A stretch of 64,000 bases of DNA. Source: Elusimicrobium minutum Pei191 (lineage in GTDB: Bacteria > Elusimicrobiota > Elusimicrobia > Elusimicrobiales > Elusimicrobiaceae). The translations under genes and the position numbers were made by a program. Below the pieces are notes generated by a model. It did not search any database and was not told where the DNA came from. It worked only from the letters and a program-made list of their open reading frames with translations. Positions 54,837-58,474 of this stretch are shown here, in pieces. Positions within the stretch are counted from its first letter, which is position 1. Each line of letters begins with the position of its first letter. The DNA is taken from contig NC_010644.1 in NCBI RefSeq assembly GCF_000020145.1, positions 248,001 through 312,000 of the forward strand. Reading direction: 5' to 3'.

Positions 54837-56162
54837 TTATTTAAATATAGGAATATATTTAAAGTCCTCAATAAGTTTGGGTTTGCGTTTTTTTATTAAA
54901 GAAACCGCCTTATTAAGCTGCTTAGCACTGCATTTGCTTACTTCAACGGGTAAAAACCAATCTTCGCCCGATATTATACTTTGCGCTATATTTTCTATAT
55001 TAACGCCCACATCGCCTATGGCTGTGCCTACGGTGCCTATTACGCCCGGATTATCTTTTGTTTTTATAATTAATAAGTAAGAAGCGGGGTAATCATTAAA
55101 ATCAGCCTGTTTGTGTTTAATAGGGGCGGTGGATTCTTTAATATCTTTTATGTATCCGTGTTTGGCTATAAAAACAACGTCCGATACAACCGCGCTGCCT
55201 GTTTCAATCGAACCCGCGCCCTGGCCTACAAACAAATGTTCGCCCGAGTAATTAGCGTTTATTTTTATGGCGTTTGTAGCGCCGTTTACGTTATATAAAA
55301 AATCCTGGTTAGATATTACGGCGGGCTGCACAAAGGAGTAAACTTTATTTTTTTCTTTTATAGCGAAGGCTATAAGTTTAATGGTGCTGTTTAAACTTTT
55401 TGCTACCATAAAATCTTCTTTTGTAATTGCGGTAATGCCCTTAACGGGAAAGCTTTGCTCAGTCGCGGGAATGCCGTAAATAAGCTGAATTAAAATTTTT
55501 AATTTATTTGCCGCGTCCATACCGTTGATATCCATTGTCGGGTCAAGCTCAGCGTAGCCCAGTTTTTGCGCAAGTTTTAAAGCGTCCTCAAAGGTGCTGC
55601 CTTTGGCGTTCATGCGGCTTAAAACAAAGTTGCTTGTTCCGTTAACAATGCCGGTAATGGAGTTAATAAGATCACCGGTAAAACTGTCCTGCACTACTTT
55701 TATTAAAGGTATGGCTCCGCAAACGGCGCCTTCAAAACCCACGGATTTATTTTTTTCTTTAGCGTAGTCGAAAATAGTGTTGCCGTGTTTTGCCAGTATC
55801 GCTTTATTTGCGGTTACAAGATGCTTGCCGCTTTTTAATATATTTTTGTGCAGGTTGTGTATATGGTTGGTGCTGCCGCCCACGGTTTCAATAACTAAAT
55901 CTATATCAGGGTCGTTAAGAACATTTTTTATACAAGCGTCGCTTTGCTCTTTTGTTATTTCTTCTTTATCAGAACAAAATAACTCTAAGGGTAACCCGTG
56001 GCGCTTTGCCTGGCGGCGGGGGTGCAAGGTAATAATTTTTTTAATTTTTATTTCTTTTCCGCCCGCTCTTTTTTTAAGTTCCGCGGCGGTTTCTTGTATA
56101 ATTTTTGCCGTGCCGCCGCCTACGTTGCCGCAGCCGATGATTGCAACATTAAAAGTTTTCAT
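54837..56162 (-). CDS. hom: Homoserine dehydrogenase
   Basis: A 441-residue enzyme reducing aspartate semialdehyde to homoserine, the branch point to Met and Thr. The NAD(P)-binding GCGNVGGGTAKII starts at residue 10; GIVNGTSNFVLSRM and GYAELDPTMDINGMDAANKL carry the substrate site and catalytic Lys; the C-terminus is an ACT domain (LLIIKTKDNPGVIGTVGTA), the usual site of amino-acid feedback. The gene overlaps metA by 14 bp and is the third gene of the metY-metA-hom operon, so it falls under the leader control described for metY. Confidence 0.96.
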   Translation of the reverse strand: MKTFNVAIIGCGNVGGGTAKIIQETAAELKKRAGGKEIKIKKIITLHPRRQAKRHGLPLELFCSDKEEITKEQSDACIKNVLNDPDIDLVIETVGGSTNHIHNLHKNILKSGKHLVTANKAILAKHGNTIFDYAKEKNKSVGFEGAVCGAIPLIKVVQDSFTGDLINSITGIVNGTSNFVLSRMNAKGSTFEDALKLAQKLGYAELDPTMDINGMDAANKLKILIQLIYGIPATEQSFPVKGITAITKEDFMVAKSLNSTIKLIAFAIKEKNKVYSFVQPAVISNQDFLYNVNGATNAIKINANYSGEHLFVGQGAGSIETGSAVVSDVVFIAKHGYIKDIKESTAPIKHKQADFNDYPASYLLIIKTKDNPGVIGTVGTAIGDVGVNIENIAQSIISGEDWFLPVEVSKCSAKQLNKAVSLIKKRKPKLIEDFKYIPIFK

Positions 56163-56955
56163 TTAACTCTCCTTTCAAATTAATAACATGATTTATTATA
56201 TTTTTGTAAAACTGCGCCGCTTGCTTTTGCCAGGTGTTAACAGGCTTAAGCGCGGGGTTATTTTCGGGGTAATAATTTTCAGGCAGCGCGGGGTTTTTGC
56301 CTGAAGCAAGGTCTCTTAAATATTCAAGGTGTATGGTGTCAGCCTCATATTCCGGATGCCCGGTTATATATAAGTTTTTTTGGTCACTACTTGAAACCAC
56401 GCTTACTTCGACCCCTGAGCAGAGGTCCGTTATAATATTTTTATTTTTTTTAATGTCCTCTTTTTTTATACCTGTATGGCGTGAATGGGGCATATAAAAA
56501 CCGTCGGCAATCTCTTTATAAAAAATGGAATCGGGATTTTGCAGACTTTGTTTAAATATGCCGCAGTATTTTTTATCAAATTTATATTTTTGTATTTTGT
56601 AAAAATGATAAAGCGCCGCTTGAGCGCCCCAGCATATAAAAATATTAAAAAGGCTGTTTGTTTTTGTAAAATCAAGTATTTTAGTAAGCTCTTGCCAGTA
56701 TGCAACATCCTCAAATTCCATAAGTTCAACAGGCGCGCCCGTAACAATAAAAATATCAAACTTACGGTTTGTAATATTTTCAAAAGTAATATAATTGGTC
56801 CTTAAATAATCTTCCGAAATATTTTTACTTTTATAAGTAGCTGTGGTAAGCCAGGCTATATTAATTTTTTTGCCCGCTGAGTTAAGCAGCGAACTTAACT
56901 GCCTTTCGGTAGCTTCTTTTGTGGGCATTAAATTTAATACGCAGGCTTCTATCAT
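56149..56955 (-). CDS. metA: Homoserine O-acyltransferase, MetA type (short form)
   Basis: A 268-residue MetA-like class I glutamine-amidotransferase-fold enzyme that acylates homoserine. The catalytic set is Cys108 (IFICWGAQAALYHFY), His200 and Glu202 (ITGHPEYEAD). VLNLMPTKEATERQLSSLL is the conserved N-terminal block, but the 30-40 residues that normally precede it in E. coli MetA are absent, so this is a trimmed version. Whether acetyl-CoA or succinyl-CoA is used cannot be read safely; acetyl is likelier given the metY partner. It overlaps metY by 4 bp and hom by 14 bp. Confidence 0.93.
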   Translation of the reverse strand: MIEACVLNLMPTKEATERQLSSLLNSAGKKINIAWLTTATYKSKNISEDYLRTNYITFENITNRKFDIFIVTGAPVELMEFEDVAYWQELTKILDFTKTNSLFNIFICWGAQAALYHFYKIQKYKFDKKYCGIFKQSLQNPDSIFYKEIADGFYMPHSRHTGIKKEDIKKNKNIITDLCSGVEVSVVSSSDQKNLYITGHPEYEADTIHLEYLRDLASGKNPALPENYYPENNPALKPVNTWQKQAAQFYKNIINHVINLKGELNENF

Positions 56956-58217
56956 ATAAGCGCTTTCTCCAAGTCGGCTATAATGTCATCAATATTTTCA
57001 ATGCCTACGGAAATCCTTATAAGGTCATCGCCTATTGCCGTTTTTTGTTTTTCTTCCTTCGTTAACTGGCTGTGCGTTGTGCTGGCCGGGTGAGTGACTA
57101 TTGTCCTTACGTCTCCTAAATTTGTGGCGTGCAGGCAAAGGGTTACGTTTTCTATTAGTTTCTTTCCCGCTTCATAACCGCCTTTTAACCCAAAGGAAAA
57201 AAGCGACCCGCAACCTTTTTTAAAATATTTTTCAGCCGTTTGTTTAAAAGGATTCCCTTCTACAAGCGGGTATTTTACCCACGCTATTTTGGGATTATTT
57301 TTTAAGTAATCAATAAGTTTTAGAGTGTTTTCCAAATGTCTGTCCATACGCACATGAAGAGTTTGTATGCCTTGCAATGTAAGATAAGAGTTAAAAGGGC
57401 TTTGGCACGCTCCGATATCTCTTAAAACCTGGGTGCGCAGTTTTACTATAAAAGCGTTTTGTGCAAAATCTTTGGCGTAAACTATATTGTGGTAGCTTGG
57501 GTCGGGGTTGCAAAAAGAGGGGAAACGCCCGCTTGTCCAGTCAAAAGTGCCGCAATCCGTTACAGAGCCGCCCATCACCGCCGCGTGGCCCGACAAAAAC
57601 TTTGTGGTTGAATGTATTATTATATCCGCGCCGAAATCTTTGGGTTTAAAAAGGTATGGGGTCATGCAGGTATTATCAACTATAAAGGGGATTTTATGTT
57701 TTTTAGCTATTTTGGAAAGTTGCTCAAAGTCAGGTATCTCACAGCCGGGGTTGCTTATGGACTCAACAAAAATGGCTTTTGTTTTATCCGTTACCAGGTT
57801 TTCAAACTCGGCGGGGTTTGAAACATCGGCAAATTTTACTTTTATGCCCAAACGGCGGAGCGAATGGGAAAACATGTTAAATGTGCCGCCGTATAAAGCG
57901 TTAGAGGAAATTATTTCGTCGCCCGTTTCGGCAAGGGCGCATATTGTCATAAACTCGGCCGAATGGCCCGAAGCCGTTACCAATGTTCCCGCGCCGCCTT
58001 CGAGAGCGTTAATTCTTTCTTCCAAAAAATTGTTTGTCGGGTTGTTTAGCCTTGTGTAAATATAACCCGGGGCTTTGAGGTCAAACAGGTCTTTTGCATG
58101 TTTAGCGTCATTAAATTTATAAGCGTTTGAAAGATATAACGGCGGGTTGCTTGATCCCGTTTCGTCAATTTCAAAGCCGTATGATACGGCCAAAGTTTCA
58201 ATATGTTGTTTTGTCAT
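56952..58217 (-). CDS. metY: O-acetylhomoserine sulfhydrylase (MetY-type, PLP enzyme)
   Basis: A 421-residue Cys/Met-metabolism PLP enzyme. Typical parts: ETLAVSYGFE at the start, GYIYTRLNNPTNNFLEERI, ALYGGTFNMF, DNTCMTPYLFKPKDFGADI and STTKFLSGHAAVMGG, in which the Lys binds PLP; TTHSQLTKEEK lies in the C-terminal domain. Length and the LNNPTN motif favour O-acetylhomoserine sulfhydrylation over cystathionine gamma-synthase, giving homocysteine directly. First gene of a tightly overlapping metY-metA-hom operon with an AAGGAG site. Upstream are a Met-rich leader frame and a terminator. Confidence 0.93.
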   Translation of the reverse strand: MTKQHIETLAVSYGFEIDETGSSNPPLYLSNAYKFNDAKHAKDLFDLKAPGYIYTRLNNPTNNFLEERINALEGGAGTLVTASGHSAEFMTICALAETGDEIISSNALYGGTFNMFSHSLRRLGIKVKFADVSNPAEFENLVTDKTKAIFVESISNPGCEIPDFEQLSKIAKKHKIPFIVDNTCMTPYLFKPKDFGADIIIHSTTKFLSGHAAVMGGSVTDCGTFDWTSGRFPSFCNPDPSYHNIVYAKDFAQNAFIVKLRTQVLRDIGACQSPFNSYLTLQGIQTLHVRMDRHLENTLKLIDYLKNNPKIAWVKYPLVEGNPFKQTAEKYFKKGCGSLFSFGLKGGYEAGKKLIENVTLCLHATNLGDVRTIVTHPASTTHSQLTKEEKQKTAIGDDLIRISVGIENIDDIIADLEKALI

Positions 58218-58231
58218 AAAATCTCCTTTTT

Positions 58232-58256
58232 AGCGGTTCGGTGCGGCGCCGAAACC
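58232..58256 (-). promoter_or_regulatory. Second hairpin between the attenuator terminator and the metY start
   Basis: GGTT-T-CGG and CCG-AACC can pair (7 bp with one bulged T) around a GC-rich loop, ending just before the AAGGAG of metY. It may protect the 5' end of read-through mRNA; no T run follows, so it is not a terminator. Confidence 0.4.
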
Positions 58257-58258
58257 AT

Positions 58259-58296
58259 AAAAAATAACCCGCCTGGCTTTTGCCTGACGGGTTATT
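58259..58296 (-). terminator. Attenuator terminator upstream of metY-metA-hom
   Basis: Minus-strand hairpin with outer stem AATAACCCG/CGGGTTATT (9 bp) and inner stem ending GGC/GCC around an AAAA loop, one A-A mismatch and one G-U pair, followed by T residues (T6 counting two stem bases) at 58264-58259. It lies 22 nt after the stop codon of the Met-rich leader frame and about 40 bp before metY. Its 5' arm (CCGTCAGGC) can alternatively pair with GCCTTTCGG at 58339-58331. Confidence 0.85.
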
Positions 58297-58318
58297 TTTT
58301 TGTTTTTATAAAATTATT

Positions 58319-58417
58319 TTAAAAATTTATCCGAAAGGCAAAAGAGTGCATGCGCATCATGCTCATCATGGCGCTCATGCTCATCATCATTGCTTTGTTA
58401 GATAAATTTTTCTGCAT
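58319..58417 (-). CDS. Methionine-rich leader peptide of the metY-metA-hom operon (32 aa)
   Basis: A minus-strand frame ATG 58417 to TAA 58319. Residues 1-9 are MQKNLSNKA, then comes MMMSMSAMMSMMRM (residues 10-23: nine Met in fourteen), then HSFAFRINF. Ten of 32 codons are ATG. TGCTATTAT (extended -10) lies six bases before the ATG, so the transcript begins near the start codon and is probably leaderless. A terminator follows 22 nt after the stop and then the methionine genes. Codons 26-29 (GCCTTTCGG) overlap the possible antiterminator arm. These are the parts of a ribosome-controlled attenuator in which Met-tRNA shortage stalls the ribosome on the Met run. The peptide itself probably has no other role. 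Confidence 0.8.
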   Translation of the reverse strand: MQKNLSNKAMMMSMSAMMSMMRMHSFAFRINF

Positions 58418-58423
58418 AACCAA

Positions 58424-58432
58424 ATAATAGCA
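58424..58432 (-). promoter_or_regulatory. Extended -10 promoter of the met leader
   Basis: Minus strand TGCTATTAT (58432-58424): TGn plus a 5-of-6 match to TATAAT. No good -35 is visible, which the extended -10 may compensate for. The predicted start is at about 58417, the A of the leader ATG. Confidence 0.55.
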
Positions 58433-58474
58433 TATTTTTTATAAAAAACTATTTTAACTGTTTTTTTACGTCAT

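Follow-up and report, generated by a model that had tools for sequence, protein, structure and literature searches.

The window analysed here, that is, the whole 64,000-nucleotide stretch comprising bases 248001-312000 of the single-contig genome of the gut bacterium Elusimicrobium minutum Pei191 (1,643,562 bases), carries on its minus strand the methionine biosynthetic operon metY-metA-hom, preceded by a short open reading frame rich in methionine (Met) codons and by an intrinsic terminator. This leader is very likely a transcription attenuator of the ribosome-mediated type, responsive to charged elongator Met-tRNA. The three genes, whose families were assigned by Pfam/NCBIfam, overlap successively by 4-14 nt. 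For metA, the acetyl-type model NF047918 outscores the succinyl model, both being under cut-off. A first-pass annotation made from the letters alone had listed an extended -10 element, a 32-codon Met-rich frame, a terminator, an AAGGAG and the overlapping genes, and all of them were found where it had placed them. In the order of transcription, and with the pairing regions numbered 1 to 4, the locus comprises the following features:

58424..58432, minus strand: extended -10 promoter element TGC-TATTAT (TGCTATTAT), with the hexamer at 58429-58424, 6 nt from the ATG
58319..58417, minus strand: leader peptide frame of 32 codons plus TAA, predicted to be leaderless, with its ATG at 58417 and its stop at 58321-58319
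58401..58411, minus strand: region 1, AAAAATTTATC, codons 3-6, the anti-antiterminator strand, which pairs with the end of region 2
58349..58390, minus strand: Met-codon run, codons 10-23, the proposed sensing part; the MM at its head is common to all relatives
58331..58344, minus strand: region 2, the antiterminator 5' strand, CTTTTGCCT-TT-CGG, from computed pairing and comparison
58321..58331, minus strand: the part of region 2 facing region 1, GATAAATTTTT, extending to the stop codon, from computed pairing
58277..58290, minus strand: region 3, the antiterminator 3' strand, CCG-TC-AGGCAAAAG, overlapping the 5' arm and the loop of the terminator
58259..58295, minus strand: intrinsic terminator, the 3:4 hairpin (58295-58264) followed by a T run; -19.8 kcal/mol, z -4.98, with 0 of 200 shuffles as stable
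58223..58228, minus strand: Shine-Dalgarno sequence AAGGAG of metY, from the sequence
56952..58217, minus strand: metY, O-acetylhomoserine sulfhydrylase (TIGR01326, E 1.8e-174), ATG at 58217
56149..56955, minus strand: metA, homoserine O-acyltransferase (PF04204, E 1.2e-87)
54837..56162, minus strand: hom, homoserine dehydrogenase (PF00742, E 1.3e-54)

The leader peptide, MQKNLSNKAMMMSMSAMMSMMRMHSFAFRINF, has Met at codons 1, 10, 11, 12, 14, 17, 18, 20, 21 and 23, so that all nine internal Met codons fall within codons 10-23. The degree of this enrichment was compared with chance in a genome-wide scan of short frames located outside long genes, with a terminator within ~110 nt and a gene within 300 nt, each frame being scored by the enrichment of one residue against the intergenic codon frequencies of the whole E. 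minutum genome. The Met frame was found to rank first among 264 short frames (p 1.6e-12; runner-up 2e-6) and first among the 59 leaderless short frames of the genome. The opposite strand allows another reading of the same letters, namely a His-codon leader: because CAT is the reverse complement of ATG, the plus-strand frame 58280-58405, which reads VHAHHAHHGAHAHHHC, is rich in histidine. With regard to this reading, some 1 kb separates the frame from the next plus-strand gene, which resembles guaB (IMP dehydrogenase), HisR is reported to control the his operon in E. minutum (PMC9413887), and promoter, frame, terminator and operon all fit the minus strand, which leaves it a practically negligible probability.

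MetY was searched in 341 Elusimicrobiota genomes. Close homologs were found in five, all of the same family (G078, G079, G088, G091 and G092), and each of them exhibits metY-metA-hom. In the four relatives with intact contigs (G078, G079, G091 and G092), metY is preceded by a terminator and, before that, by a Met-rich frame that spans 26-31 codons and contains 6 internal Met codons; the contig of G088 begins inside the leader, which is therefore seen in part. A terminator is present in the leaders of all relatives. The genes upstream of the leader differ among the relatives while the leader stays before metY-metA-hom, and the leader therefore travels with the operon. The first-pass annotation had named as support a Met-rich frame and a terminator kept between variable flanks, and the alignment of the relatives revealed precisely this: frame, antiterminator and terminator are retained while the upstream gene changes. 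Within the frame, all eight alignment gaps are multiples of three, compared with 1 of 12 after the stop (Fisher p 7e-5, gaps common to sister genomes being counted separately). The Met frame appears to be under selection as a coding sequence and is probably translated.

A conserved and probably translated frame could also have a product with a function of its own, a small Met-rich protein; alternatively, the terminator could belong to the upstream gene. The peptide, however, varies from 26 to 32 codons across the leaders and diverges outside its Met codons, while the RNA pairing is kept. As for the terminator, the upstream gene gpmA has a terminator-like hairpin of its own at ~58500-58475, and the upstream gene differs in the relatives. 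Both variants are consequently improbable.

A covariance model of the leader was searched across the phylum and gave one strong new match, on contig 63 of G088 (E 6.6e-10). This match is a second Met leader, MKENIFCTKMMSIMSMYMFAMMSMIWILYSSALQN, which has its own terminator and stands directly before metE. Together with the frame-preserving indels, it supports the Met-leader interpretation of the first-pass annotation. Weak matches of the model (E 0.001-0.1) were dropped, as none had a leader-like Met-rich frame. A protein-similarity search with the leader peptide alone matched only G092, G089 and G013, the last of which is a chance match. In G089 (L035/L038, G089:C199:8651-8734), a Met leader with a terminator is located after dapA and before a truncated frame, MTIYRYLKQKVLPIFLASAILCNLSLESFGQAI, at the contig end, rather than before metY. 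No Met leader before metY was found in 24 further Elusimicrobiota loci or in 11 metY loci on genome contigs outside the close relatives.

Since riboswitches are the usual means of controlling met genes, the operon might instead be governed by an S-adenosylmethionine (SAM) or S-adenosylhomocysteine (SAH) riboswitch or by a Met T-box, the Met-rich frame being incidental. SAM riboswitches indeed precede metY homologs in metagenome-assembled genomes of Bacillota and Acholeplasmataceae (L182, L183), and their detection there served as the positive control for the search. A third of the genomes of the family also hold one somewhere. At the locus and at six related loci, however, there is no Rfam match above cut-off, and a threshold relaxed to E<1 likewise brings up neither a SAM nor a T-box element, in agreement with the exclusion of a SAM riboswitch that the first-pass annotation had proposed as a check; the leader is only ~120 nt long, most of it the conserved frame. 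The T-box covariance model gave no match at the locus, the Rfam leader-peptide families none above cut-off, and the SAM riboswitch (RF00162) was not found anywhere in the E. minutum genome. A riboswitch or T-box at this operon is therefore highly improbable. Among Elusimicrobiaceae, a SAM riboswitch occurs in 29 of 90 genomes (L224-L226 among the matches) and in none of the 7 genomes with a Met leader (Fisher p 0.09), so that mutual exclusion of the two across the family is suggestive only.

With regard to the RNA structure, the antiterminator pairing noticed in the first-pass annotation exists, and its extent has to be revised: the 2:3 helix is longer than described and comprises 9+3 bp, formed by CTTTTGCCT-TT-CGG (58344-58331) with CCG-TC-AGGCAAAAG (58290-58277). 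It was found in all seven leaders, with the core UGCCU..CGG/CCG..AGGCA, in which a C-G pair is replaced by U-A in G088 and by U-G in G079. In G078, G079 and G088, the AGGC/GGGC/AAGC stretch of region 3 belongs to the loop of the terminator hairpin, which does not depend on it, and still pairs with region 2. The same annotation had regarded a classical 1:2 pairing as not obvious. Such a helix does exist, between AAAAATTTATC (58411-58401, codons 3-6) and GATAAATTTTT (58331-58321, the end of the frame), and it is present in all seven leaders. Its two strands change together, as UUUAUC/GAUAAA, UUUUAUCCGC/GCGGAUAAAA and UUUCC/GGAAA, and as AUUUUGCA/UGCAAAAU in the metE leader. The energy of the region 1/region 2 duplex beats that of shuffled region 1 sequences in six of the seven leaders (p 0-0.05; p 0.085 in the seventh), the helix being weak in G079 and in the metE leader of G088.

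Nascent-RNA folding was computed for the seven leaders with the ribosome footprint masked. With the ribosome at the first Met codon, the probability of the 2:3 helix, P(2:3), is ~1.0 in six of seven leaders; with the ribosome at the stop, it is 0.00 in all seven. The ribosome-free state is of particular relevance to a simpler, two-state attenuator, which corresponds to the model of the first-pass annotation: the 1:2 helix would have no function, the antiterminator would form by default and a ribosome at the stop would just block region 2. The ribosome-free 2:3 helix is fairly likely in E. minutum, in G089 and in the metE leader of G088 (0.65-0.99), as this model would predict. It is nonetheless rather unlikely, given that regions 1 and 2 pair and co-change in all seven leaders above the shuffled level just described, and that a threonine (Thr) leader of the same genome, presented below, shows a clear 1:2 helix (AACCGCCA/UGGCGGUU).

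We therefore favor an attenuator with three exclusive helices, which could work as follows. The first transcribed base would be the A of the leader ATG or one next to it, and the ribosome would load on the leaderless RNA. When Met-tRNA is scarce, the ribosome would be expected to stall at the first Met codons (10-12), thereby covering region 1. Region 2 (58344-58331) could then capture region 3 (58290-58277) while the 3' arm of the terminator has yet to be transcribed. Termination would consequently fail, and metY-metA-hom would be transcribed by read-through. When Met-tRNA is ample, the ribosome would reach the stop (58321-58319) and cover region 2, the 3:4 terminator would form and transcription would end near 58259. 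If no ribosome is present, or after its release, 1:2 would form and favor termination. The comparison among the relatives supports the stalling and antitermination put forward in the first-pass annotation, regulation itself being predicted from the sequence.

Several observations weigh against this attenuator. The covariation of the 2:3 helix in the Met set is not above that of a shuffled control, the sequences being too few and their changes few, and the case for a Met attenuator was not built on it. One 2:3 core pair is lost in G092. The predicted folding of the G078 leader in the stalled state does not yield the 2:3 core; there, an ACGGGG inside the frame could engage the same arm of the terminator. 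Ribosome-free P(2:3) spans 0 to 0.99 between species, and the strength of 1:2 is therefore uneven. In folding at equilibrium or at full length, the terminator always wins, which means that the switch must be kinetic and act during transcription. The leader in G089 precedes an unrelated, truncated frame. Finally, Met starvation also limits the initiator tRNA and would weaken the loading of the leader.

The distance from the -10 hexamer to the ATG is exactly 6 nt in all six genomes in which upstream sequence is available. Strict -10 hexamers before predicted E. minutum gene starts peak at this same spacing (83 of 1184, versus 10-22 at other spacings), and leaderless mRNAs appear to be common in this bacterium. 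Because of this genome-wide peak and of the exact spacing kept in the relatives, the Met leader itself is very probably leaderless. The metE leader of G088 has a longer 5' end and an AAGG ahead of its ATG; a leaderless start is therefore not essential to the device.

When the leaderless short frames of the E. minutum genome were ranked by residue enrichment, the top three were a Met frame before metY-metA-hom, a Thr frame before hom-thrC-thrB and a lysine (Lys) frame before lysA, all three belonging to the aspartate family. The first-pass annotation had mentioned neither a leaderless start nor the two sister leaders, which are the following:

G000:C1:950983-951066 (L126), minus strand: Thr leader MKLIRTASTTVTTTTTMDKLLAVFVLN, leaderless, before a second homoserine dehydrogenase, thrC and thrB
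G000:C1:768885-768950 (L117), minus strand: Lys leader MLKNAKKTDSVKKGSKKTLGA, leaderless, before lysA

The Thr leader exhibits the classical layout, with 1:2 (AACCGCCA/TGGCGGTT), 2:3 (GGCGG/CCGCC) and 3:4; the thrC and thrB that follow it were named from their sequence starts rather than by a profile search. The Lys leader was found before lysA in ~25 related genomes (upstream regions L194-L221; for example MAMILSVKRVSKQNKSKKCACVPAYNFADR), 22 of which show the 6-nt spacing. Its antiterminator is paired in 99.0% of the cells of an alignment of 15 sequences, three of its pairs have undergone changes in both strands, and its covariation score was reached by 0 of 500 shuffles. No lysine riboswitch was detected in the 90 genomes of the family. 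On these comparisons, the Lys leader before lysA looks like a lysine attenuator. It is likely that Elusimicrobiaceae use leaderless leader-peptide attenuators to control the aspartate pathway in its branches to Met, Lys and Thr, those for Met (metY-metA-hom and metE) and Lys (lysA) being without well-supported precedent, and that the Met attenuator may replace the SAM riboswitch of other members.

Two further observations were made. A second inverted repeat, GGTTTCGG...CCGAACC, lies at 58235-58255 of the window on the minus strand, between the terminator and the ribosome-binding site of metY. In E. minutum, where metY, metA and hom are present, no MetE-like protein was found by tblastn in the family or by phmmer, nor any B12-binding domain above cut-off. 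The enzyme of the final methionine step may be a methyltransferase that escaped recognition, or MetY itself with methanethiol as substrate.

The comparative case for Met- and Lys-codon attenuators widens the set of amino acids sensed in this manner and adds a phylum. Methionine is special because the translation of every protein begins with it. A lack of methionine that makes the ribosome stall on the Met run would at the same time leave less initiator tRNA for leaderless loading, which constitutes a built-in conflict. These leaders further indicate that, in phyla that have received little study, leader peptides can go unnoticed in intergenic regions without annotation.

The attenuators of textbooks respond to Trp, His, Leu/Ile/Val, Thr or Phe; riboswitches, T-boxes and repressors are the familiar regulators of methionine and lysine genes. 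As a kind, leader-peptide attenuation is classical; the Met and Lys specificity and the phylum appear new, this priority being bounded by the open-licence literature. The first-pass annotation knew of no described Met-codon attenuator of this operon, and we likewise found none for a biosynthetic operon in that literature, the nearest being a weak proposal for metL of Streptomyces lividans; in the available portions of the sources, a lysine-codon attenuator of lysine genes was not found either. For the methionine and lysine operons of Actinobacteria, a survey detected no conserved RNA element (PMC1262725), and the available part of a broad attenuator survey does not name a Met or Lys leader peptide (PMC2965389).

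SAM (S-box) riboswitches before metY or metA share with the E. minutum leader their target genes and the premature termination of met transcripts; they differ in sensing SAM through an aptamer, none of which is present at the E. minutum locus. The met operon of Xanthomonas campestris (metA-metB-hom), a similar gene trio, has a methionine-responsive 5' untranslated region that acts mostly at the level of translation and is SAM-I-like, with no leader peptide reported (PMC6230763), whereas the region before the E. minutum trio contains a predicted one. In S. lividans TK24, metL (MSTTSDRTPATEATTTPGARCMCRRMCAF) is a proposed leaderless leader peptide of 29 codons with 2 internal, non-consecutive Met codons before the metNIQ transporter genes and, per its authors, with no typical terminator (PMC8079986). 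Both systems place a Met-codon leader, proposed or predicted to be leaderless, before methionine genes. In contrast to metL, the Elusimicrobiaceae leaders have 6-9 internal Met codons, a terminator and an antiterminator, comparative support and a biosynthetic operon. The closest likeness in layout is to thrL, trpL, hisL and leuL of Proteobacteria, which also combine a short frame with consecutive codons for the product, exclusive 1:2, 2:3 and 3:4 helices and an intrinsic terminator before the operon, whereas the E. minutum leader carries Met codons, is predicted to be leaderless and belongs to the phylum Elusimicrobiota.
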